64,000 nt of DNA, taken from contig NZ_JALMEW010000002.1 in NCBI RefSeq assembly GCF_023094245.1, positions 248,001 through 312,000 of the forward strand, read 5' to 3'. Both the position numbers and the translations under genes were made by a program. Each line of letters starts with the position of its first letter. Positions within the stretch are counted from its first letter, which is position 1. Below, in pieces: positions 1 to 62,200 of the stretch. This DNA is from Halomonas getboli (GTDB lineage: Bacteria; Pseudomonadota; Gammaproteobacteria; Pseudomonadales; Halomonadaceae). Below the pieces are notes generated by a model. That model was given only the letters and a program-made list of their open reading frames with translations. It was not told where the DNA came from and searched no databases.

Positions 1-1
1 C

Positions 2-937
2 CGTGTCAGCTGGATTGAGGAAGGAAAAACACAACCGAACAAGGTCACGGACTATTATCGATTAGCATACCGTGGAATGCTTTCACAGTCCGGAGAAAGA
101 ACCTTAATCCCTTCTATCCTTCCGAAAGGCTGCGGACATATTCATGGTGCGCAAACAACAGCATTCAAGAACAATCTGACCTTAATTAAGCAAGCTTTAT
201 TTTGTACTTCTCTGGCAGGAGATTTTTACACAAAGACAACGGGAAGGAGCAACCTAATGGCCACTTGGTCTGCATTCCCGTTACTAGAAAAAGTTCCTCA
301 GGCCTCAACGAGGCTATTATCATTAAACTGTCTAACCAACCATTATTCAGAACTCTGGCAGTCCTGCTGGCAGGACGCTTTTAAGCAAGCCCAATGGGCC
401 AGCGATAGCCCGCTGCTGGATCATGACTTCTTTGCCAATCTGACGCCGGAGTGGCAGCGACATTGCGCGCTACGCAACGACTACGCCCGCCGTCAGGCCC
501 TGGTGGAAATCGACGTATTGGTCGCCCAGACACTGGGCATGACCCTGGAAGAACTCAAGACCATTTATCGCGTGCAGTTCTACGTCATGCGCCAAAATGA
601 AGCCGACACCTGGTATGACGCCCGCGGCCGCATCATCTTCACCCCCAGCAAGGGCCTCGCCGGCGTCGGCCTGCCCCGCAAGGCCAACAAGAAGGAACTG
701 GAGCAGGACATTCACTACTCCATCGAATCCCCGGAGCGCACCGACTACAACATCGCCCTCGGCTGGGAAGACGTGAAAGACATGCAGGAAGGCGTCGTCC
801 GTAAGACCTGGCTCGACGACACCCTCCCCGACGGCCCCTGGGAAACCACCATCGAATACCACGCTCCCTTCACCCGCCCGGATCGGGAGAAGGACTATGA
901 AAAAGCGTGGGAAATCTTTGAGCAATCCAAGGCATGA
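2..937 (+). CDS. Defence-associated DNA methyltransferase, C-terminal part (partial)
   Basis: The reading frame is open from base 2, so the gene starts upstream of the window and only about 311 C-terminal residues are seen. The visible part contains the motif KGLAGVGLPRK and the ending DREKDYEKAWEIFE, which I associate with the C-terminus of large Eco57I/PglX-like adenine methyltransferases found in DISARM-type loci (DrmMI). The catalytic SAM-binding and NPPY-type motifs would lie off the left edge, so activity cannot be judged. In such systems the methylase marks host DNA as self. It is followed 62 bases later by an acidic protein gene and then a DrmD-like ATPase on the same strand, which supports the defence assignment. 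The internal ATG at 77 is not the start, because the frame upstream reads through with similar composition. Confidence 0.75.
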   Translation, partial: RVSWIEEGKTQPNKVTDYYRLAYRGMLSQSGERTLIPSILPKGCGHIHGAQTTAFKNNLTLIKQALFCTSLAGDFYTKTTGRSNLMATWSAFPLLEKVPQASTRLLSLNCLTNHYSELWQSCWQDAFKQAQWASDSPLLDHDFFANLTPEWQRHCALRNDYARRQALVEIDVLVAQTLGMTLEELKTIYRVQFYVMRQNEADTWYDARGRIIFTPSKGLAGVGLPRKANKKELEQDIHYSIESPERTDYNIALGWEDVKDMQEGVVRKTWLDDTLPDGPWETTIEYHAPFTRPDREKDYEKAWEIFEQSKA

Positions 938-999
938 TCTTGGAACATCGAGCATAGGAAACCATTCCCAACTGTCTCCAATGGAGGAGAGGGGATAAG

Positions 1000-2673
<1,674 letters not shown>

Positions 2674-2810
2674 CCAGAAGTCATCTCCATGAGCGGAGCA
2701 TCACTGGCGCCCCCTCGAATAATTACCAACAAGGCAACAAAAAAGCTGTCCTTGATACTAATGATCTGATGGAAAAAATCTCGCGAACCCATTAATGCAG
2801 GAACCAGAAG

Positions 2811-5666
2811 ATGTCGATACCCACCAAAACACCTGTCCTTGGCGCAAGAGCAAGTATCACAATACCGTCGGGTGAAGAAGAGACCTGCCGGGTTCTCCAG
2901 TCTGTCACCGGAGGCAATACACCACGTTCGCAGGTGAAGTTGAAGTCTCGCAAGGAGCCACTTTGGGTAGAGACATCATCACTGCGTTCCGGCTACAAAT
3001 CCGGCATGCATGTCCAGGCGACCGGGTCGAGGGAAGCCAGGAAGTTCGGTGAAGGAATCATTGTACAAACGAAACTGGAATCTCACCTCCACCTCCACCT
3101 GACCGAATTCCCGGAAAGCCAGACAAGGCGATGGCTGCCCTGGTATGTTCTTAAACCCTGCCCAAGCGTAAAACAGCGATTTCTCGTTGGTCATCAGGAT
3201 AGCTTCTCGACTGCTGAAAGATGTCGACTTCGAATACTTGCACGACTCTTTCAGAATTGGCAGCAGAATACCGGTGCGTTATCTGACCTGGATATTGACC
3301 CCCTTCCCCATCAGATCCACCTCGTCCACCACATCCTAAATTCAGGTAATTACAACTGGCTTATCGCAGATGATGTAGGGCTTGGAAAGACTATCGAAGC
3401 TGGAATGCTCATCTATGCGCTACGCCAAAGAAAGGAAGCACGGCGTGTGCTGATCATCACACCTTCCGGACTGACGACACAGTGGCAGGAAGAGATGTCA
3501 AACCGCTTCAATTTACGAGATTTCCGAATTTATGGGCGTGATTTTGTCATTCAGAAAGCGTCCCACTGGCAAGATCACGCCCACGACTATGTCATAGGAT
3601 CCATGGACCTTTTCAAGCAGGATCACCACCGGGAGATGCTGCTCCACGCCGCCCCTTGGGATATCGTGCTAGTCGATGAGGCCCACCGGCTTTCCAGAAG
3701 ACAATACGGCATGAAACTCGACTCCTCGGATCGCTTCAACCTGCTACACGCGCTTCGCGAAAACGAAAAAGCGGATAACCTGATACTGCTCACCGCCACT
3801 CCCCACCAAGGAATGCAAGACAAGTTCATTGCTTTACTTGAACTGCTTCGCCCTGAACTCAAGGAAGAATTTCGCCTACTAGACCTCAACCGCAGCCTTC
3901 TCGGAGAGATGGTCATAAGAAATTACAAGTCAGACGTCACTGACAAGAAGGGAAACTTCATATTTCGTGGAAAGAAAACGCATTCCATCACTGTCGAAAG
4001 CAGCCAGGAAAGCCATGACTTCGACAGGTCTATGCAAAGTTATCTCAAACTAGGGTACAGCGCGGGAGAAAATCTAGGAAAAACCGGAAATGCCATTGGC
4101 TTCGTGATGACAGTATACAGGAAGCTAGCCGCTTCCAGTGTCGCAGCCATCCATCAAGCTCTGATTAATCGACTGCACAGGCTGGACAATGAAAAGGGCA
4201 ACAGCTTTGACATTGCACAGAAAAAAGAGGATAGCCGATATCAAGGGGAGGAAGAAGAAGCACAAGTTGCACTTCTACCAGGCAACGAAGAGGAATTCTT
4301 TTCAGGCGAAAGAGAACTTCTGGAAGAGCTCATCTCGTCTGCTGAAAGGCTCAAGGAAAAAGACCTGAAACTGAATAGCCTCATGGACACCATTATCCAC
4401 AAAATACTTAACAACTCTCCCGGAGAACGCATCCTGATATTCACTGAATATCGTGCCACTCAAAAATACTTGAAAACAGCCCTCAGGGAAAAATTTGGCC
4501 CTGACACAGTTCAACTTATCCATGGCGGCATGTCACTGGACGAACGGTCAGAAGCGATACACTCCTTCCAGAATCTCGGACAGTTCCTCATCTCTACCGA
4601 AGCAGGAGGCGAAGGAATAAACCTTCATCACAACTGCCACATCATGATCAACTACGACCTTCCCTGGAATCCGATGCGGCTTGTACAGCGGATAGGTCGC
4701 CTCTATCGCTATGGGCAGAAAGAGCCTGTCACGGTTCTTAACATCAACTCCAAAGGCTCCCTGGATGATGACATCATAACAATCATGTATGAACGCCTTC
4801 ATCAAGTAGTGGAGGACATGGCTCAGGTTCAGGGTGATGAGTTCAACGAGGGTCTCAAGGACGACATACTTGGTGAAATCTCTGACATCGCCAACCTGGA
4901 AGACATTATCAACAACTCGCGCCAGCAGAATATTCAGCGAACTCAAGAGCGGATTGAGGAAGCACTCGAGCGTGCCCGCAATGCTGCCAGCCTTCAACGC
5001 GACCTCTTCGAGCATGTTTCAAGCTTTGATGCAAACGCCTTCAGCCAACAAATCGTAGTGACCAATGATCACTTGAAGTCATTTGTATCAGGAATGTGTC
5101 GCCTCTTGGAAATCGAAGTAGATTACCACTATCTGAGAGGAGCGGCCTGGAGGCTTAGACTCCCTCAATGGATCAAGAACAGGCTTCACATGTCTCGATC
5201 AGTGATTTCCATTACCTTTAACAGGCCGCTATCCCGAGACCGAGATGACCTTGAGCTCATCAGTTATGGTAGCGCTTTCTTCAAAGCACTGATTGAAATG
5301 GCATTAGACACTGACTTCGGTGGAAAACATGCCATGACAAGCATGAATACCACCCAGGCTCAGGGTGCAATCCTGGCCACTATGCTGCGCTGGCAAAACG
5401 AGGCAGGAAGGCGGATGAGCGAAGAGTTCTCGATCTTTCTCGATGACGGAAAAGATATCAAACTCAACCCCCCTTCCATCCAGGAGTGGCTACTTGATGA
5501 GGCAACAGATGAGGCTTACGAGCCTCGGGATATGGAGATGGCGAAACAGACCTATGAGAGACTGAAAAAGCATTGCTCCTGGCGAATGTCCCATCATTCC
5601 AGGACAAGCCTGCTTCCGGAACGATTTGATCCCGTCTCCGCCATGTGGGTTCTGAACAATCCCTAA
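2811..5666 (+). CDS. DrmD-like SNF2-family helicase/ATPase
   Basis: 951-residue superfamily 2 ATPase of the SNF2/HepA type. After an N-terminal domain of about 165 residues, motif I is DVGLGKTIEAG near residue 188, motif II is VDEAHRL near 287, motif III is LTATPHQG, and the second RecA lobe ends with STEAGGEGINLHH and QRIGRLYRYGQ near residues 600-635. A long C-terminal region (about 680-951) with coiled-coil-like charged helices follows. This order and length match DrmD of class 1 DISARM, an ATP-driven DNA translocase thought to help act on incoming DNA. It lies downstream of the methyltransferase on the same strand, as expected for a DISARM-related operon. Base composition is less GC-rich than the host-type genes further right. 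A plain HepA/RapA-like role is less likely given the context. Confidence 0.85.
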   Translation: MSIPTKTPVLGARASITIPSGEEETCRVLQSVTGGNTPRSQVKLKSRKEPLWVETSSLRSGYKSGMHVQATGSREARKFGEGIIVQTKLESHLHLHLTEFPESQTRRWLPWYVLKPCPSVKQRFLVGHQDSFSTAERCRLRILARLFQNWQQNTGALSDLDIDPLPHQIHLVHHILNSGNYNWLIADDVGLGKTIEAGMLIYALRQRKEARRVLIITPSGLTTQWQEEMSNRFNLRDFRIYGRDFVIQKASHWQDHAHDYVIGSMDLFKQDHHREMLLHAAPWDIVLVDEAHRLSRRQYGMKLDSSDRFNLLHALRENEKADNLILLTATPHQGMQDKFIALLELLRPELKEEFRLLDLNRSLLGEMVIRNYKSDVTDKKGNFIFRGKKTHSITVESSQESHDFDRSMQSYLKLGYSAGENLGKTGNAIGFVMTVYRKLAASSVAAIHQALINRLHRLDNEKGNSFDIAQKKEDSRYQGEEEEAQVALLPGNEEEFFSGERELLEELISSAERLKEKDLKLNSLMDTIIHKILNNSPGERILIFTEYRATQKYLKTALREKFGPDTVQLIHGGMSLDERSEAIHSFQNLGQFLISTEAGGEGINLHHNCHIMINYDLPWNPMRLVQRIGRLYRYGQKEPVTVLNINSKGSLDDDIITIMYERLHQVVEDMAQVQGDEFNEGLKDDILGEISDIANLEDIINNSRQQNIQRTQERIEEALERARNAASLQRDLFEHVSSFDANAFSQQIVVTNDHLKSFVSGMCRLLEIEVDYHYLRGAAWRLRLPQWIKNRLHMSRSVISITFNRPLSRDRDDLELISYGSAFFKALIEMALDTDFGGKHAMTSMNTTQAQGAILATMLRWQNEAGRRMSEEFSIFLDDGKDIKLNPPSIQEWLLDEATDEAYEPRDMEMAKQTYERLKKHCSWRMSHHSRTSLLPERFDPVSAMWVLNNP

Positions 5667-5845
5667 CCTTGAACTCAGGAGAAAAGCATACCCATAAGCG
5701 CATGATAGATTCATCAATCCCAAAAACGACGAAACCCCGGCATATCACTCTGAGGTTTTATCCGTCCTCGACAGGAAGGCTACCTTTTTCCTGTAAATTT
5801 TCTTAGCATCTTGCACCTGAGCAAAGGAGTGCCCAAGGAGTCCAT
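5667..5845. other. Intergenic gap within defence operon
   Basis: 179 bases separate the SNF2 gene from the YprA-family helicase. I see no gene or clear hairpin. An AAAGGAG-like ribosome-binding sequence lies before the helicase ATG. GC content rises after this gap, so it may be a junction between parts of the operon with different histories. Confidence 0.5.
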
Positions 5846-8800
5846 ATGCTACCAAGCCTCGTCGCCCATGAACTGCAGCTGAGCCTGCACGACTACCTGC
5901 GTGCGGCCTTTCCGATCTCCACGCCAAGCTTTCGCGGTGAGGGGGCACAAGGCGAGACGGCACTGATCGACCGCTTCCTGGATACTTCCGGCAAGTTGCT
6001 GAAGGGCCCTTATCTGTCGTTGGGTCTGCCCTTTCGCCGCGATGATCAATCGCCGCCTTTTCAGCATATCGATCCGGGGTTTCCACCCTTTCGCCACCAG
6101 CAGCAGGCCTTTCAGCGGCTTAGTGGCAAGGTGAAGCAATCCACACTGGTAGCCACGGGCACCGGTTCGGGCAAGACGGAGTGCTTCCTGCTACCGATTC
6201 TTGAACATTGCTGTGCGTTCCGGGCCGACCCGTCCATCACCGAGAAACGCGGTATCAAGGCGTTGATCATCTACCCGATGAATGCCCTGGCGACGGATCA
6301 GGCCCGGCGCATGGCCAGACTGGTCAGTGAGCTGGATACCCGGATCACCGTGGGCCTGTTCACCGGCGATGAGGTGGAGTCTCCCAGCCGGTCGATGTCC
6401 GTCGATAGCGTGATCACCGATAAGGAGACGCTGCGCGATAACCCGCCGGATATCCTGCTGACCAACTACAAGATGCTCGATTTCCTGCTCATGCGGCCCA
6501 AGGACCAGGCCCTGTGGCGTTTCAACACGCCGGGCATGCTCCGCTATCTGGTGGTGGATGAGCTGCATACCTTCGATGGTGCCCAGGGCACCGATCTGGC
6601 CTGCCTGATCCGGCGCCTGCGTGACCGCCTGTCGATCGGCGATGAAATGGCCTGTGTGGGCACCTCGGCAACCATCGGCGACGCCTCGGCCTCGGAGCAG
6701 CTGATGCGTTATGCAGAGGAGATCTTCGCCACGGATTTTGGTGATGAGAGCCTGGTACTGGAGGATCGGCTGTCCGCCACCGAGTATCTCGAACATGCAC
6801 AGGCGAAGCATGGCGACCTGGCCTTCCACCATTGGCCAGCGGATATCGCGGCACGTCGGCAGTTGGATCCGCAACGCTTCGAGCAGCCTTCCACCTTTCT
6901 GGCGGCCGCCTTCGAGCAGTGGTTCATCGAGGGTAGCGTCCCGGTCGAAACCGACGTGCATGCCCTGCGCGATGCCGAGCACCCGTCGCATTCACGGGCC
7001 CTGGTCGCACTGGGCCGAGACCTCAAGCGCCACGAGGCATTTCATCACCTGTTGCGTGAGAGCCAGGGTGTCACCGATCTGGGCGCTTTGCTGAAGCGCT
7101 GGAAGCGCGAACGCCAATGGAGCGGTGAACCGCATGTGGTGCTTTACAGCCTGTTGGCGCTGATCTCGGCGGCCCGCGAGGCCGTGCCGCGCGAGGATGA
7201 CGAGCCGCTGCTGGCCCCGCTGCTGACGGTACGGCTGCAACTCTGGCTGCGCGAGCTGTCGCGCATGGTGGCCAGTGTGGGCGATACTCCCGAGCTGCGC
7301 TTTGCCGATGACGATCCCCAGGGCCGCCCGGCCCCCGGCCAGACGGAAACGGACGGCCAGTCACTCCACCTGCCACTGGTGCATTGCCGGGACTGCCATA
7401 ACGCGGCCTGGGGGATCCTGAAGGCCGAAGACAGCCCCCACATCAAGAACGATCTGGCGGCCTTCTATCGCGAGTATTTCCAGAGAGGGCCCAATGTCTG
7501 TCTGCTATATCCGCTGGCGGATTCGGCACCGCCAGCGCAGCGAGAAGGTCAGGTCAAGCAGCTCTGTTCGAGTTGCCGGGCGCTGACCCATGGCGATGCC
7601 CAAGGCAACTGCCCGACCTGCGGCGCCGGTACGCTGCTGCGGGTCTGGCAGCCGGTATTGCAGGAGCGGGAACAGGATAAGCTGGTCAGCAAGACCGACC
7701 ACTGCCCGTACTGCCACTCCCACGGTGGCCTGTCGATCCTGGGTTTTCGTGCCGCCTCACTCTCCAGCACCCTTCTGGCTCGGCTGTACCAGTCTCCCTA
7801 TAACGATGACCGCAAGGCCATCGCCTTCTCCGATAGCGTGCAGGACGCCGCTCACCGCGCCGGCTTCTTCGAAGCACGAACCTGGCGGCAGGCGCTGCGT
7901 CAGGCGATGAATGGCTGGCTGGCCAGCCAGGGACAGACGCTACCGCTGGATCAACTCGGCCAGGCGTTTGCCGAGGCAATGCGTCGCCAGGCCGGCAGTG
8001 ACGCCGATTTCGTGGGCCGCTGGCTGGCCCCCAATATGGCCTGGCTGCGGGATGCCGACTATCTGCAGCGTGAGGACGCATTGCCGGCCGACAGCGACCT
8101 GCCCGACCTGGTGCGTCGGCGGCTCGACTGGGAACTGCATACCGAGCTAGGGCTGCGCAGCCAGATCGGCCGTACCCTGGAGCGCCAGGGGCGCGTCACC
8201 CTCAGCGTAGATACGCCCCTGCTGGAAGCCGCCGCCGAGCGGCTGGCCAACGACTGGGCCCAGGAGCTGCCGGGCATCGGTGAGGTCAGCCGCGAGCAGA
8301 CAACACGCTTTTTGCTTGGCGTGCTGCATCGCATGCGCACCCGCGGCGCCTTTGCGCACCCGGAAGTGGAAGGCTATGTACGCAATGGCGGCAACACCTT
8401 TATCTTTCGCAACACACCCTGGCTGCCCAATTACGGCCCCCGATCCGCCCCGCCGGCCTTTTTGACCCAGGACTCGGTCTCGAAGAACTTCGACAGCATC
8501 GGCGGCCAGCAGCGCGGTGGGGGCCACTGGTACAAGAGCTGGTTTCTCAAACAACTGGACGCCGACCAGGTGCTGACCCATGACGTGGCCCAAGCCTATC
8601 AGCTGACCCTGCGGACACTGGAGCGCATCGGACTGTTGAGAGTGGTCGCAACGCCCCAAGGACGCTCCATCTGGGGGCTGGAACGCCCACACTGGCATGC
8701 CGTGACCCAGCCGCTGCCCATGCGCTGCAATGTCTGTGGCCAGCGATCCCAGGTGGCTCATGAACAGTCCGAGCACTGGGAAGGCATGGCCTGCCTGCAA

Positions 8801-56956: not shown

Positions 56957-57189
56957 GCAGCATGAGCCTCGGAGGCGCCGGCAGGCCGGATAGTGAAAGG
57001 CTACTCATGGAGGGGCCGAACAGGCAAACCGGGGGCTCAACGGCAAGGTGAGCAAGGACGTTTTTCGCCATGCGACACACGCCAGATCAATGTTTTGGAA
57101 GGAGCCCGTTTGCGCACAGTGTTCTTTCAGTGACAGGCGCTTCGGGGTGGTCAAGACTCAGGCGAATGCTCTTGAAGGAGAGTTCCCCC

Positions 57190-57429
57190 ATGCAGCTTCT
57201 CGTCGTCAGCTACACCCCGGGCAGCTACCTGCTGCATTGCCTGGAAGCCGAGGAAATCCCTAGCGTCGGCAGCATGATCGAAGCCGAGCGCGTTAGGGGC
57301 CGAGTGCTCAGCGCCGAGCTTTTCACCAATGTTCAGGGCTGTGAAGGCGCGGTGATCGTCGATGACCTCACCGTCAGCCAAGCGGCCGAACTCTGGCCTG
57401 CCGCGGGTTCCGTGCGGGGGGCGGAATAA
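57190..57429 (+). CDS. Small protein of unknown function
   Basis: 79 residues from the ATG at 57190, preceded by GAAGGAGAG. The sequence (MQLLVVSYTPGSYLLHCLEA) is not recognised. Codon use is like the host genes. It lies at the edge of the phage-remnant island. Confidence 0.6.
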   Translation: MQLLVVSYTPGSYLLHCLEAEEIPSVGSMIEAERVRGRVLSAELFTNVQGCEGAVIVDDLTVSQAAELWPAAGSVRGAE

Positions 57430-57491
57430 GGCCGGCCGGTCAGTCGTGACAGCTGTTCTCCCCTATCGAAGCTCCGCTGACTTCTGAAACG

Positions 57492-57812
57492 GTGCCGAGC
57501 CCCCGCGAGCTCATCGCCGGCAGCGACGACAAGCCCAAGCGCCGCCCTACCGACGACACAAAGGACGACGCCCTCGCCGCCGCCCAGAGCGAATGGCAGC
57601 GCCTCCAGCGAGGTGGCGCCTCGTTCACCCTCGACCTCGCCGAAATGCCGCCCCGAGCTCTACCCCGAGACCCCTGTCACCCTCAGCGACCGCGCGCTGA
57701 CCAGCTCGGTGGAGATGGAGGTAAGGAGCGGCTAGGCCAAGCGCCTCATTCACGCTCGACTTCGTTGAAAGCTGACCGAGCTCTACTACGAATATCCGGT
57801 CATGCGGAGTGG
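57492..57812 (+). pseudogene. Decayed phage late-control protein D remnants, partly duplicated
   Basis: AAAQSEWQRLQRGGASFTLD and, after a frameshift, ELYPETPVTL match the C-terminal region of P2-like tail protein D. A second copy of the same patch follows about 125 bases later (ASFTLDFVES, then a stop), with aligned bases GAGCTCTAC in both. The gene is broken by frameshifts and stops. It is a relic of a P2-type prophage. Confidence 0.6.
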
Positions 57813-57899
57813 CTGAATAGAGAGAACGGTGCCATGTCATAGTTAGTAGCGGGTGCTGAACACTCCCCCATTTCCAAGAAGAAACTTCAAGGAGAAAAC

Positions 57900-59159
57900 T
57901 CAACCAAAGCTAAGCATATTGAAAAATGAATTTTTAAAAACACTCCACATACTCAGAGCGTCAAATCCACCATCCAAGCTCACTTTATCCGCCTCTGGCA
58001 GAAAGGAGTTAAATATCACATGTGCAGCAACAAGACCAACCACAACCAATAAAACCAGAGATACAAAAATTAGCTTTTGCATGCAAATCCGATGCAACAA
58101 AGAAACAAAAACACTGTCAAACATTCGCTCAATGGTCGGATATTCTGCGGAAATCTTTTCTCTCTGACGAACAACTTCTGACTTGATAGCATTAATTGAG
58201 CACCACTGGTTAAAAATCAGCGCAAGAACAATTAATGAAAACATCCAGCATCCAAAAAGCACGCCTTGATTTATAAGCATCTGGCTATCACTTTTGTCTG
58301 CATCTTTCATTTGGGTAGCAACTATCACGGTTGCCACTGGTATGCTGAGAACCTGATTCTGAATGCTTGAGAATATGTCATGAATTCTTTTAGTAAAGTC
58401 GAGCTTGGCATCTTGAACCTTCCCCTTAACAAGCTCATAGGAAAAGCCGGAACAAAAAATCCTATAGCCTTCTCTTGCATTATCCTCGATGTCAGAAAAT
58501 CGACTTAGCATTTTAGAGAACCTATCTTCCTTAGGCACGCCAGATACCAAAGAAATGATAGCCGAGGACATTATTTCTTTCTTCTGATCCTCATGAACAT
58601 CACCTTCGAAAAAAGAAGAAATAAACCCTATATCAAAATTCAAACCCTCTAAATCATGGGAAGTATAAACGATAGGTATGGAAACCTTTCCAGAATCAAC
58701 AAACACCAACTCCTTATTTTCTTTATCAAAATAATCTGAGGCTTTCCCGAGTGACTGAATAAAGTCCAGCATCTTCCTATACTGCACTATCAAGTATGGC
58801 GGATTACTATCATTTTTCGAAAAGCCTTCCGAAACCAAAAAATAGTCGCTTGGCTCCTTAATAACTCCCGCCTTAAAAAGGGCATCAATATCCCAAGCCA
58901 ATATCCCTAAACCTGGCCTGGGCTGCGACACCCTTAGCTCAACAGCGTCACCAATCTTAAGATTGTCAGGATCTCCCTTAGTTATGGTTATTCCAGAATC
59001 TTCGGAATTTTTCTCACTGAGCGCCAGTGACAAAAGTTCTACTTGCCCCTCCTCTTCAAGAGTCAATTCGTAGCGCTGTGGTTGCTCAGACTTACCTCTA
59101 CTGCTTAAATCCAGCATTTTGTAAATCTCAACAAGATCATCAAAGCTAATCTGCCGCAT
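57900..59159 (-). CDS. Membrane protein of unknown function, partner of nucleoid-associated-like protein
   Basis: 419 residues. Residues 1-265 look soluble and mixed alpha/beta (YLIVQYRKMLDFIQSLG near 122). Hydrophobic segments lie at about 269-284, 296-317 and 362-385, with a short charged helix between the last two, so the soluble domain is membrane-anchored from its C-terminus. I do not recognise the family. It starts two bases after the stop of the upstream gene, so the two are translationally coupled. Both are strongly AT-rich compared with all neighbours, which indicates recent transfer. The layout, a DNA-binding-type protein with a membrane protein, recalls Kiwa but the sequences are not recognised as KwaA or KwaB. 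Confidence 0.75.
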   Translation of the reverse strand: MRQISFDDLVEIYKMLDLSSRGKSEQPQRYELTLEEEGQVELLSLALSEKNSEDSGITITKGDPDNLKIGDAVELRVSQPRPGLGILAWDIDALFKAGVIKEPSDYFLVSEGFSKNDSNPPYLIVQYRKMLDFIQSLGKASDYFDKENKELVFVDSGKVSIPIVYTSHDLEGLNFDIGFISSFFEGDVHEDQKKEIMSSAIISLVSGVPKEDRFSKMLSRFSDIEDNAREGYRIFCSGFSYELVKGKVQDAKLDFTKRIHDIFSSIQNQVLSIPVATVIVATQMKDADKSDSQMLINQGVLFGCWMFSLIVLALIFNQWCSINAIKSEVVRQREKISAEYPTIERMFDSVFVSLLHRICMQKLIFVSLVLLVVVGLVAAHVIFNSFLPEADKVSLDGGFDALSMWSVFKNSFFNMLSFG

Positions 59160-59161
59160 GA

Positions 59162-60265
59162 TCAGGACCTCGAAGTCTCTCGCCTTAGACTCTCGATCAA
59201 GTGAGGAGGAACATCAGAAAGCTTAATACTATTATCTTCTAACAGCTGAATATTCCCAGCAGCGATGGCCTCTCTATCAAAGCTGAGGATCCAGTGCTGT
59301 GACTTACCTCGGAATTTCACCAAGCCGAAGAGCCCTCTTTTGTTCGGAACAAAGCCATCGCTAATCGGAGTTTCACTCTCGGCCAAAGCGGTTTTAAGAG
59401 CCTCAGGTTCACGAGGCCACACAACATTAGAAAACTCCTCAAGGTGCAATTCTAGGCTTTCATCAGCCATCGCTCTACAGTATTCATCTACTTTCTTGAA
59501 AAAATCATCTCGCTGCTGATCCGATAGCGGCTCACCGTCGACTTTCACTGTTGACGCAAATTTCTCAACAACACTGGTCAACGACTGAGTGTCGTTCAAA
59601 TTTGAAATAGAAGAGTCGCATGCCAGAAACCTTTTGAAATAATCCGCGACGTCCCCCGTACCTTTGAGAAAGCTTAAATAGCGATCTTCTTCATTTCTCC
59701 AAGCAGTGACATTTATTTGTCCCGCAAAGCGCAAACCCTTCAGATTTAGAAAGCCAACCTCTTCTAACTCATCGCCTCTATCTTCTTCCTCGTTGAGTGC
59801 AATGGCGTACTCATCATTTATAATAGCAACTAAGAGATAGTCTTTCTTTGCATGAGAAAATTGCGCGACAAACACGTGCCCACCGGTAGAAGCACTGGAC
59901 CGCCTAGCTTCAGCAGCTAATGCATGCGCCATTTTCACGCTAAACGTTTTAAAGTCAAGCTCACGATCAACGAAGTACCTTTTTACATATACTTGAGAGC
60001 GATTCTCCTCGACCTTTCCATTAAAATAACCAAATGACTTCGAGGGCTTTGATGAATATATTTCATACAGCTGATCAACCAGCTTTTGTGCCAGCTTTGT
60101 TTTTGCTAGAGGCTTTGACCTAGGCTTAACCGTAACATTTTCACTTACGTGCTTATCTTTTCGGAGCTCGTGCGTAATAAGATGATGAAGATCTGTCTTG
60201 GCAAGATAATCCTCATCAGAATCACTCACATCCTGACCTTCGGCTTCCACAGTATTCAAACTCAT
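59162..60265 (-). CDS. YejK/NdpA-like nucleoid-associated family protein
   Basis: 367 residues, AT-rich. Motifs of the 37-kDa nucleoid-associated family (NA37) are visible: HVFVAQFSHAKKDYLLVAII near residue 130, LNLKGLRFAGQINVTAW near 173, and DRYLSFLKGTGDVADYF near 194 followed by FLAC, close to the YLSFIKG...DYF block of YejK. Housekeeping YejK is usually a single core gene; this copy sits in a phage-remnant island, in an operon with a membrane protein. It is therefore probably an accessory relative that binds nucleic acid, with a role in defence or element maintenance inferred only. Start ATG follows CAGGGTG. Confidence 0.78.
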   Translation of the reverse strand: MSLNTVEAEGQDVSDSDEDYLAKTDLHHLITHELRKDKHVSENVTVKPRSKPLAKTKLAQKLVDQLYEIYSSKPSKSFGYFNGKVEENRSQVYVKRYFVDRELDFKTFSVKMAHALAAEARRSSASTGGHVFVAQFSHAKKDYLLVAIINDEYAIALNEEEDRGDELEEVGFLNLKGLRFAGQINVTAWRNEEDRYLSFLKGTGDVADYFKRFLACDSSISNLNDTQSLTSVVEKFASTVKVDGEPLSDQQRDDFFKKVDEYCRAMADESLELHLEEFSNVVWPREPEALKTALAESETPISDGFVPNKRGLFGLVKFRGKSQHWILSFDREAIAAGNIQLLEDNSIKLSDVPPHLIESLRRETSRS

Positions 60266-60283
60266 AACACACCCTGCAATTCA

Positions 60284-60311
60284 ATTATTTTGGTTAATCG
60301 AAATTCATCAA
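60284..60311 (-). promoter_or_regulatory. Possible promoter of the NA37/membrane-protein operon
   Basis: On the minus strand TTGATG and AATAAT are separated by 16 bases, with a very short leader to the ATG at 60265. An alternative -35 TTGACC lies ten bases upstream. Confidence 0.35.
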
Positions 60312-60317
60312 AAGAGG

Positions 60318-60686
60318 TCAATTTCCCTGAAGAAATATTGCGTCACTTCTAGCCCTGTGAATGACCACGCCCCGACACGCCGACTGCCGGGCGAAGAACG
60401 ACTCTTTCGGCCCTGAGGTGCGCATCAGCCGGAAGCGCCCGCCGATCCGGTGGCTACGGCACAGGCGCAGACTGTCCTCACCCTGCACCACCACCAGATC
60501 GCCATGTTGGACCAGGCGCGCCTCGTCGATCACCAGCACGTCGCCCTCGATGATCTCGCCGTCCACGCCGGCGTCGTCGCCCACCTCCACGAGGTAGCAG
60601 CTCGGCGTTAGCCGCCGAGCGTCCAGGTCTTCGAGCACGGGATGGTCATGACCCGGCAGCACCGGGCCGAGGTAATGGAGTCGCAT
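60318..60686 (-). CDS. UmuD-like S24-fold protein with degenerate active site
   Basis: 122 residues with the UmuD layout (LTPSCYLVEVGDDAGVDGEI, then GDVLVIDEARLVQHGDLVVV, then GVVIHRARS). The catalytic serine of the GDSM motif is replaced (GDDA) and the lysine position reads SLRLC with Arg instead of Lys. So self-cleavage is not expected. It has no helix-turn-helix. It may be a dead relic or an adaptor or binding module. No umuC follows. It is one of several phage-derived or SOS-type genes in the island. Confidence 0.7.
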   Translation of the reverse strand: MRLHYLGPVLPGHDHPVLEDLDARRLTPSCYLVEVGDDAGVDGEIIEGDVLVIDEARLVQHGDLVVVQGEDSLRLCRSHRIGGRFRLMRTSGPKESFFARQSACRGVVIHRARSDAIFLQGN

Positions 60687-60695
60687 AGGCCAGGA

Positions 60696-61031
60696 TCAGT
60701 CGAAGCTAAACTCGCTGCGGTTGTTACCGGCGGATACTTCCATCTGCACGCAGCTCTCCAGCAGGCTATAGCTGCCCGGGCCGCCTACGCTGGCCACGTC
60801 TTGGCAATGGCTCTGGATGTTCGACGGCAGGCCCGACCACTGGCCCTTGAGACCGTTATAGGCGGACTGCTCCATGTCGATGCAGCTGTTGTACAGCATG
60901 TTGCTGGAGTCGCCGCTAATGCTGGCCACCTGCCCACAGTGAGCCTCGACATCGAAGCGCGGAATGTCAGCTGCAAAAGCAGATCCAGCAAAGAAAGCCA
61001 GGCCAGCGCCCAGCAGTGCCATAGATTTCAT
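60696..61031 (-). CDS. Small secreted protein with two Cys-containing repeats
   Basis: 111 residues with a signal peptide (residues 1-20, ending GSAFA). The mature part contains two similar units, AHCGQVASISGDSSNMLYNS and SHCQDVASVGGPGSYSLLES, each closed by Cys and a Met-Glu pair. The four cysteines probably form two disulfides in the periplasm. Function unknown. Confidence 0.7.
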   Translation of the reverse strand: MKSMALLGAGLAFFAGSAFAADIPRFDVEAHCGQVASISGDSSNMLYNSCIDMEQSAYNGLKGQWSGLPSNIQSHCQDVASVGGPGSYSLLESCVQMEVSAGNNRSEFSFD

Positions 61032-61046
61032 CGCCCCACCTCCCTA

Positions 61047-61394
61047 TCAGGCCGCTTCCACCATCGGCTCCGGCATCAGCGCCCCATAGTCGAATTCCGT
61101 ATTCTCCGGCTCCGCACTGTTCAGGGCAGCACCGAACACAGCCAGGCCGATAAAGTAGACGATCGGCGATACCACCAGGGTGCAGATCAGTTGGGTGATA
61201 CCGGTGCCGGTCCGGCCCCGCGTAATCACCACGATGGCGATGATGAAGGCCACCAGGTTCAGCGGCGCGCCCAGGAACAGTCCCAGGCCGGGGAACGGCA
61301 CCAGGAAGCATACCCAGGCGATCAGCAGCAGAATCCACACTGCCTTGATCGGCGCTCCCTTGCCGTTGTTGGTTTCCGATTCCAAGTTGCTCAT
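61047..61394 (-). CDS. Small membrane protein of unknown function
   Basis: 115 residues with three hydrophobic segments (about 18-36, 40-57 and 68-88) and an acidic C-terminus. It has the look of a superinfection-exclusion or island membrane protein, but no family is recognised. It is on the same strand as the secreted-protein gene 15 bases downstream. Confidence 0.6.
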   Translation of the reverse strand: MSNLESETNNGKGAPIKAVWILLLIAWVCFLVPFPGLGLFLGAPLNLVAFIIAIVVITRGRTGTGITQLICTLVVSPIVYFIGLAVFGAALNSAEPENTEFDYGALMPEPMVEAA

Positions 61395-61458
61395 TCCCTT
61401 CTCCTTGCGTATCGCCCCTGCCGGGGCTGTTGTGGACTGGCGGTCTAGGCCGCCTTGG

Positions 61459-61868
61459 TCACGAGATCCGCCCGATGCGGACCTCGCAGCGCCCCAGGAT
61501 CTCCACCTCCCGCATTTGCTCGGGCGGGATCATCTCGGGCCGATAGTGCTCGTTGTCGCTGATCAGCAGCCAGGCGCCGCTTGCGACGCGCTGCCCGCGC
61601 TTGATACGTCGCTCGCCGTGCACGAGCAGCAAGAACACCCCTTCCGTGTGCGGATCGCGGCTACTGCGATCCACCAGCACCCAGTCGCCGTCGGCCAGGG
61701 TGCCGTCCATCGAGTCGCTGCGGACCTTGCTTGGACCAGATCGAGGCCCTGGGCGGCGAGCTGCTCGGTGGGGAAGTACATGGTGGATTCGACTTCCTCC
61801 CGCTCGAGCGAACGGCCATCGCCGGCGGCGTGGATGCATTCGAGAAGAAAGCGCGCCTCAACCACCAA
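61459..61868 (-). pseudogene. Frameshifted S24-family phage repressor
   Basis: The N-terminal part in one frame (FLLECIHAAGDGRSLEREEV, then STMYFPTEQLAAQGLDL) continues after a shift near 61735 in another frame as SKVRSDSMDGTLADGDWVLV with the catalytic Ser and a later Lys (RRIKRG). This is the C-terminal part of a C2/CI-type repressor. The DNA-binding N-terminus is missing or decayed. Confidence 0.6.
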
Positions 61869-62072
61869 CGTCCACTCACAACACTTAGGACGACACTACC
61901 TAAGAGAGATGCGGCTGTCATGCCTGAATTAGCGATCACCGACCAAGGTGAGTGTGGCTGCGGATTGTGCGAGGGTCTGTAAGGACAGTCGTCCAGAGGA
62001 ATGCCGCTAGGGGCCGGGGAATCTGTGCACTGGGATGCGAGAAGGTGTAGCGCTTTGGGGAGGCACAAACGC
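61869..62072. other. Gap between phage repressor remnant and tRNA terminator
   Basis: About 200 bases with no supported gene. It presumably holds eroded phage repressor and integration-end sequence. I see no clear direct copy of the tRNA 3' end here. Confidence 0.4.
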
Positions 62073-62104
62073 AAGAAAGCCGCTGATCTCTCAGCGGCTT
62101 TCTT
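62073..62104 (-). terminator. Terminator downstream of tRNA-Ser
   Basis: The perfect 14-base inverted repeat AAGAAAGCCGCTGA with TCAGCGGCTTTCTT (four-base loop) lies just past the tRNA 3' end; its T-rich arm terminates the minus-strand transcript. Confidence 0.85.
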
Positions 62105-62112
62105 AGAATTCG

Positions 62113-62200
62113 TGGCGGAGGGGGAGGGATTCGAACCCTCGAAGCCTTTCGACTTACACACTTTCCAGGCGTGCTCCTTCGACCACTCGGACACCCCTCC
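62113..62200 (-). tRNA. tRNA-Ser (anticodon GGA)
   Basis: 88 bases on the minus strand including encoded CCA. The acceptor stem GGAGGGG pairs with CCCCTCC, the anticodon loop is CTGGAAA (anticodon GGA, reads UCC/UCU), a long variable arm follows and the T-loop is TTCGAAT. The 3' end points into the phage-remnant island, as expected for an integration site. Confidence 0.97.

Follow-up and report, generated by a model that had tools for sequence, protein, structure and literature searches.

A gene pair distantly related to the anti-phage unit DS-1 at a variable tRNA-Ser site in Halomonas getboli

The gene pair and its place beside a tRNA-Ser gene

Within a 64,000-nucleotide stretch of Halomonas getboli DNA (the window), two adjacent genes, here called A and B, lie near a tRNA-Ser gene. 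They and the features around them are as follows.

57900 to 59159, minus strand: gene B, ATG start, 419 amino acids, three C-terminal hydrophobic segments
59162 to 60265, minus strand: gene A, ATG start, 367 amino acids, NA37/YejK family, first gene of the pair
60318 to 60686, minus strand: S24-like ORF, separated from A by 52 bases on its upstream side (PF00717, E 1.9e-4, slightly below the cut-off)
61459 to 61839, minus strand: S24 part of a repressor, a remnant with the N-terminal part absent (PF00717, E 1.2e-13)
62076 to 62126, no strand assigned: likely attachment site, comprising the tRNA-Ser 3' end and the bases after it (blastn)
62113 to 62200, minus strand: tRNA-Ser(GGA), marking the right-hand edge of the variable stretch (ARAGORN)

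The ORF coordinates place 2 bases between A and B. The A protein matches the Pfam NA37 family (PF04245) with an E-value of 2.7e-57 and 195.1 bits, above the gathering score of 24.6 bits, and its profile matches the solved YejK structure 9be2 (E 6.4e-64). Its score against the NCBIfam YejK equivalog (NF001557) is 171.7 bits, below the curated cut-off of 341. No Pfam family was found above the cut-off for B, and a Pfam scan of 61 members of its family gave weak, scattered matches alone, with at most four members per family. The hydrophobic segments of B comprise residues 262-280 (weak), 298-316 and 364-382; averaging over the 61 sequences gives these three peaks again. GC content is 0.400 in B and 0.439 in A, compared with 0.645 in the window and approximately 0.625 on both flanks. 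An earlier first-pass annotation had described a YejK-like NA37 protein and a 419-residue protein with three C-terminal hydrophobic segments, separated by two bases and much more AT-rich than their surroundings, and this description is borne out in each particular. Searches for a promoter or terminator of the pair's own gave pattern matches no better than those in shuffled sequence.

The tRNA-Ser(GGA) gene marks the same border in six other genomes (G023, G025, G047, G054, G055 and G056). In G047, a second copy of the sequence at 62076-62126 lies 9.7 kb from the first (blastn); because the main G047 match begins at 62094, the repeat amounts to about 33 bases. This repeat at the 3' end of the tRNA gene is likely an attachment site, present in a single copy in the window, where no second copy was found. 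The site of one relative, G025, whose flanks are 96-97% (right) and 91% (left) identical to those of the window, has about 2.1 kb where the window holds 5.0 kb (57044 to 62056), and the G025 insert has no match to the pair. The stretch is therefore variable. At the same tRNA gene, G056 carries a very different pair (A 22% and B 18% identical) together with part of the repressor remnant seen in the window; G054 carries other cargo, with PADLOC matches to cll (E 3.2e-17) and capP (E 2.3e-20). The site thus appears as a variable spot across the genus (window 62076-62200, relatives L170-L175).

We read the S24 domain at 61459-61839 as being of the phage-repressor type. This remnant also adjoins the pair in G056 and in Vreelandella hamiltonii, and other cargo in G054. 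Two small ORFs that lack a family lie between it and the S24-like ORF, and no integrase was found in a Pfam scan among the ORFs around the pair. The pair had earlier been placed in a tRNA-Ser island with phage remnants; the tRNA gene is where that account put it, and the phage remnants are limited to one repressor piece and one weak S24-like ORF.

Vreelandella hamiltonii is the nearest carrier found (A 77.9% identical; B 70.2% over residues 45-417, a contig break falling inside B). There, the pair occupies a different chromosomal place, adjoining what we take to be dusA, and the repressor remnant lies immediately upstream of A. An operon that includes the S24-like gene at 60318-60686 was considered and rejected, as gene order differs in V. 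hamiltonii: a degraded relative of this gene sits downstream of B (tblastn, L027), so it is no fixed part of an operon. In the same genome, a reverse transcriptase ORF (L027:1800-2579, minus strand; RVT_1, E 1e-11) lies 0.6 kb beyond B, after the degraded S24-like gene.

The pair might also be a decaying leftover, two genes that happen to have stayed intact within a phage remnant and serve no purpose in their host. The truncated repressor next to it and the single attachment-site copy found speak for this explanation, and truncated B remnants do occur elsewhere (L009, L016, L088 and L089). Nevertheless, both ORFs in the window are full length, and the pair is kept in V. hamiltonii at another chromosomal place with 78% (A) and 70% (B) protein identity. 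We regard decay as very improbable.

Another lower-GC stretch (48-57%) occupies window positions 1-6000. Its ORFs at 77-937 and 1000-2673 lack a Pfam family and are followed by an SNF2/DEAD-type helicase at 2811-5666, a layout that could be that of a defence operon.

Relation to DS-1 and to other known systems

Both proteins match the NCBIfam families of the anti-phage unit DS-1. B matches DS1_2_antiphage (NF053869) with 73.6 bits and an E-value of 1.6e-20, and A matches DS1_1_antiphage (NF053868) with 56.1 bits and an E-value of 3e-15; the curated cut-offs, 315 and 330, respectively, are not reached. When the window's families were aligned by hhalign with the named DS-1 proteins and their kin, the result was 99.5% for A (311 columns) and 99.0% for B (255 columns). 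The named DS-1 is that of E. coli TUM1226 (WP_000355468.1 and WP_000150292.1), both proteins of which are above the NCBIfam cut-offs. They are annotated as 'nucleoid-associated anti-phage protein' followed by 'anti-phage protein', and their genes lie within a prophage, flanked by holin on one side and by antiterminator Q on the other. This unit was found through L126, and was not matched through L127 or L129 DNA.

In E. coli and in the window alike, an NA37 gene is followed on the same strand, after 2 bases, by a membrane-type gene; both proteins are homologous, and both pairs reside on mobile DNA. The differences are nonetheless considerable. Identity to E. coli DS-1 is 17.4% for A and 15.7% for B. 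In an unrooted tree of 86 paired and five resident NA37 proteins, four DS-1 relatives form one clade (branch values 99/93), and the next larger group adds four rows (99/94), whereas the window's A belongs to a separate group of 65 rows (98/91), in which its nearest kin are from Oryzomicrobium, Polaromonas and a viral contig (95/84). Two N-terminal CxxC motifs are present in A of three of the four DS-1 rows and absent from the 82 other rows, that of the window included. Finally, at a threshold of 1.2, the B protein of E. coli DS-1 has one hydrophobic segment and that of the window three.

Judged by these sequence comparisons, the pair is a distant clade of DS-1, with the same two genes in the same order and the same kind of setting, below the curated cut-offs and devoid of the CxxC motifs. 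Because the match is distant, we treat it as a divergent branch of DS-1, not as an equivalog of any known unit. The first-pass annotation had called the pair the best candidate in the window for an undescribed system, and held that a close match of both proteins to a named system would refute novelty. "Undescribed" was too strong, since both proteins are homologous to DS-1; at 16-17% identity, however, the match is not a close one. PADLOC (2023) gave no match to A or B at E-values up to 1, nor to the second protein of the named DS-1.

The DefensePredictor study (Science 2026; PMC13092281) reports 42 validated units called DS and counts a 'YejK nucleoid-associated domain' as one of the domains whose part in defence it newly validated. 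The names used by NCBIfam suggest that DS-1 is the unit with this domain. The available part of that text holds no description of the DS-1 partner or mechanism, and among open-licence papers, as far as their searchable text goes, it is the only one that we recognised as dealing with an NA37 or nucleoid-associated protein and a membrane partner in phage defence. In that literature, DS-1 features solely as one validated E. coli unit. Part of the distribution described below may already be known, as Figure 3D of the same study treats the spread of homologues (PMC13092281).

Several other systems resemble the pair in layout. Housekeeping YejK/NdpA belongs to the same protein family as A, and the window's genome has a second NA37 gene on another contig (C11, 235 bits), where the surrounding 4 kb contain no B. 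Kiwa consists of a membrane protein and a DNA-associated protein, and its proposed mechanism is that a membrane disturbance is sensed and a DNA-acting partner responds. Kiwa was nevertheless rejected: profile comparison gave probabilities of 4.1% for KwaB (PF16162) and 0.7% for KwaA, with profiles of four and three sequences, and PADLOC found no match, in agreement with the first-pass judgement that neither protein is recognisable as Kiwa. In three Kiwa loci compared, the membrane-type ORF, which we take to be KwaA, comes first, unlike the NA37-first order of the pair. Homology to RexAB was likewise not supported (0.2% for A compared with lambda RexA, 3.5% for B compared with lambda RexB), in what is a weak test, since the targets were single lambda sequences. 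No relationship to RdgC was found by sequence.

Pairing, spread and neighbourhood of the family

Genome and viral loci were collected by means of peptide patterns conserved in the B proteins of six relatives, and locus counts consequently favour the window's clade. When profiles of both families were applied, 61 of the 64 genome loci, 29 of the 30 viral contigs and 13 of the 15 plasmid or phage records had A immediately upstream of B. The last set comprises 15 of 16 matches (all but H14) and counts one pair twice, as L011 and L018. Chance pairing is rejected by these numbers. The co-occurrence of the two families, which the earlier reading had put up for checking, is thus conserved, and its picture of a DNA-binding-family protein and a membrane protein joined as a two-gene unit on mobile DNA is supported. 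Unpaired cases comprise two contig edges (L027 and L118), a truncated copy (L016), and a single 208-amino-acid Cupriavidus remnant (L009, L088 and L089). This remnant (L009:4526-5152), the C-terminal part of B with no A, has the same score in three Cupriavidus records and could represent either decay or a reused membrane part. No relatives were found with B-only patterns in genome contigs or with A-only patterns in viral contigs.

The two genes overlap in 78 of 84 measured pairs (gap below zero). Spacing exceeds 60 bases in eight paired loci, of which five are overlaps of 86-89 bases and one is an overlap of 203 bases (L055), lengths that depend on the start codon chosen; the remaining two (L084 and L117) have broken frames. 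B is divided into two ORFs in L057.

Members of a pair are also inherited together. Pairwise distances among A proteins correlate with those among B proteins across 86 pairs (r = 0.931), a value reached in none of 2000 permutations; the nearest neighbour is the same for A and B in only 54 of the 86. For 50 of the 64 carrier genomes, NA37 genes were counted: 46 have a single one, which is the paired gene in all 46, and four, from Vreelandella, Yersinia, Serratia and Pseudomonas, have two. A survey of the class of a Methylobacterium carrier, which given this genus is Alphaproteobacteria, detected NA37 in one of 240 genomes, namely, the carrier itself.

The family occurs in alpha-, beta- and gammaproteobacteria, on plasmids and in temperate phages, and it is rare. 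The window's pair is found in 3 of 195 relatives and 4 of 369 genomes of the class, its own genome being counted in both. The DS1_2 model has matches in 2 of the same 369 genomes; in the order to which Yersinia pekkanenii belongs, it matches 19 of 295 genomes, three of these above the model's cut-off. Within E. coli, a second pair, distinct from the named DS-1, was detected in 39 of 5426 genomes when DNA similarity had to extend over 70% of the query.

Some relatives are cargo of temperate phages. DS-1 and the second E. coli pair each adjoin antiterminator Q in a prophage and are read in the direction opposite to the surrounding phage genes; the second pair is flanked on its other side by a small ORF, a gene for a methyltransferase and essD, a lysis gene. 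In the window's own family, the ORFs that follow the pair in one genome (G110) presumably encode lysis and terminase functions. Of 137 ORFs listed around viral pairs, we compared 102, from 14 of the 30 viral contigs, with PHROGs. Two PHROGs of Q-like antiterminators were matched by six of these flanking ORFs each, two of repressors by four each, and two of Rz spanins by three and two. The prophage of the second E. coli pair also carries SLATT_5 and reverse transcriptase genes (L121:2334-4233) near an integrase at dusA, perhaps a second defence cargo.

Presence on mobile elements could also indicate a role other than defence. As a regulatory or maintenance module of such elements, A would compact or silence element DNA and B would tether it to the membrane for segregation or to control transfer or excision. 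Pairs on plasmid and phage records are compatible with such a role, and mobile NA37 proteins with regulatory duties are known: NdpA2 regulates the integrative element PAPI-1 (PMC8565334), and an ndpA gene lies in an element at tRNA-Met in Acidithiobacillus (PMC10561277). However, in the portion of the report consulted, NdpA2 of PAPI-1 works with the RHH protein TprA and not with a B protein (PMC8565334), one type of pair occurs in so small a fraction of E. coli genomes, and the homologue DS-1 is named as anti-phage. We therefore rate a non-defence module as rather improbable. A defence role would, in turn, explain why NA37 proteins reside on mobile elements.

The neighbours of chromosomal pairs are suggestive of defence, and only suggestive. 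Eighty-six flanking ORFs match 63 PADLOC families (E 1e-10), as against 15 for 86 control ORFs from the same genomes, a contrast that is overstated because families and not proteins are counted, and one HamA-like and one HamB-like protein match many models. Among the flank matches listed are HamA, HamB, HEC-05, IetA (twice), DpdF and SoFic; control matches include mad3, mad8, SoFic, PDC-S14, SspH and others. The comparison required a 17-kb control stretch in the same genome and used 14 of the 64 genome loci. Twenty were tried, of which four had no control stretch and two were short. To make the two sets equal in size, ORFs were chosen by hand from the middle of each stretch (86 of 144 in flanks, 86 of 175 in controls). 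The enrichment near known defence genes that the first-pass annotation had asked for is seen only in the family counts, with matches in the controls as well.

A possible DNA-binding sensor and membrane effector

Thirteen positions are invariant in 61 B proteins: L9, Y232, F239, H260, Q267, Q269, P274, Q283, K285, G303, N317, Q318 and R357. Twelve of them lie from residue 232 on, and 11 lie within 232-318, around the first two hydrophobic segments. P274 is present in all 86 aligned B proteins, DS-1 included, and is the sole 100% position among those listed at 85% or more. Pfam scans of B and of the 61 members revealed no enzyme family. Because the invariant residues gather at the hydrophobic segments and no enzyme family was found, we read B as a membrane effector and A as a DNA-binding sensor; the weakness of the first hydrophobic segment counts against this reading of B.

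Our preferred interpretation, to which we assign a probability of roughly 0.55, is that the two genes form an anti-phage module belonging to the DS-1 superfamily and working in the manner of RexAB, with A as a DNA-binding sensor that signals to B as a membrane effector. RexAB, too, is a two-gene unit of temperate phages that combines a DNA-binding protein with a membrane protein, and a sensor and effector of these kinds have been proposed for lambda RexA and RexB (PMC12894663). For RexAB of P. putida (RexABpp), this has been demonstrated in part: RexA is a DNA binder, and overproduction of RexA leads to membrane damage by RexB (PMC12894663). The supposed working mode would be the same, although no sequence relationship of A and B to the RexAB proteins was found.

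According to this proposal, temperate phages, plasmids and islands would carry the pair as cargo. A would bind double-stranded DNA (DNA binding has been reported for YejK) and would act as the infection sensor, probably responding to replicating or topologically unusual phage DNA. That A senses topology is a guess by analogy with the reported contact of YejK with, and its action on, topoisomerase IV (PMC10561277). B would be an inner-membrane protein whose N-terminal half lies in the cytosol, and upon a signal from A its membrane hairpin (residues approximately 260-318, with the invariant P274) would open or rearrange. The compromised membrane would then stop growth of the infected cell, thereby preserving the resident prophage or the host population.

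The same anatomy, an NA37 protein and a membrane protein, would also suit the reverse order of events, as proposed for Kiwa. B would sense a membrane disturbance, and A would hold incoming DNA at the membrane and block its replication or transcription, still as a DS-1-type anti-phage unit. B residues 1-230, which precede the hydrophobic segments, could hold A, and this order accords with A being related to a nucleoid protein for which an action on topoisomerase IV has been reported (PMC10561277). On the other hand, no sequence relationship to KwaA or KwaB was found, and conservation in B is strongest in the membrane hairpin and its approach rather than in the N-terminal half, which fits a membrane output better. 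We thus consider the reverse order unlikely and retain the order from sensor A to effector B. The question of whether a nucleoid-type protein can serve as the infection sensor of a membrane effector, in a RexAB-like manner with other parts, is made answerable by 86 diverse pairs with few near-invariant residues, P274 of B foremost, that are available for testing.

The NA37 tree also bears on the housekeeping proteins, whose role in Gammaproteobacteria has long been puzzling. The five resident YejK proteins form one group within the diversity of the paired proteins (88/86). Because the tree is unrooted, this position fits either loss of B in the YejK lineage or a root on the YejK branch. It is conceivable, if a long shot, that the two-gene module of an NA37 and a membrane protein is ancestral, that YejK/NdpA is its solitary descendant, and that the module senses the topology of replicating phage DNA, the property that connects YejK with topoisomerase IV, and reports to a membrane pore. 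In the same tree, a pair from a Candidatus Yonathbacteria metagenome-assembled genome (L036) groups with Burkholderiales, which may reflect a binning error or contamination, or a recent transfer.
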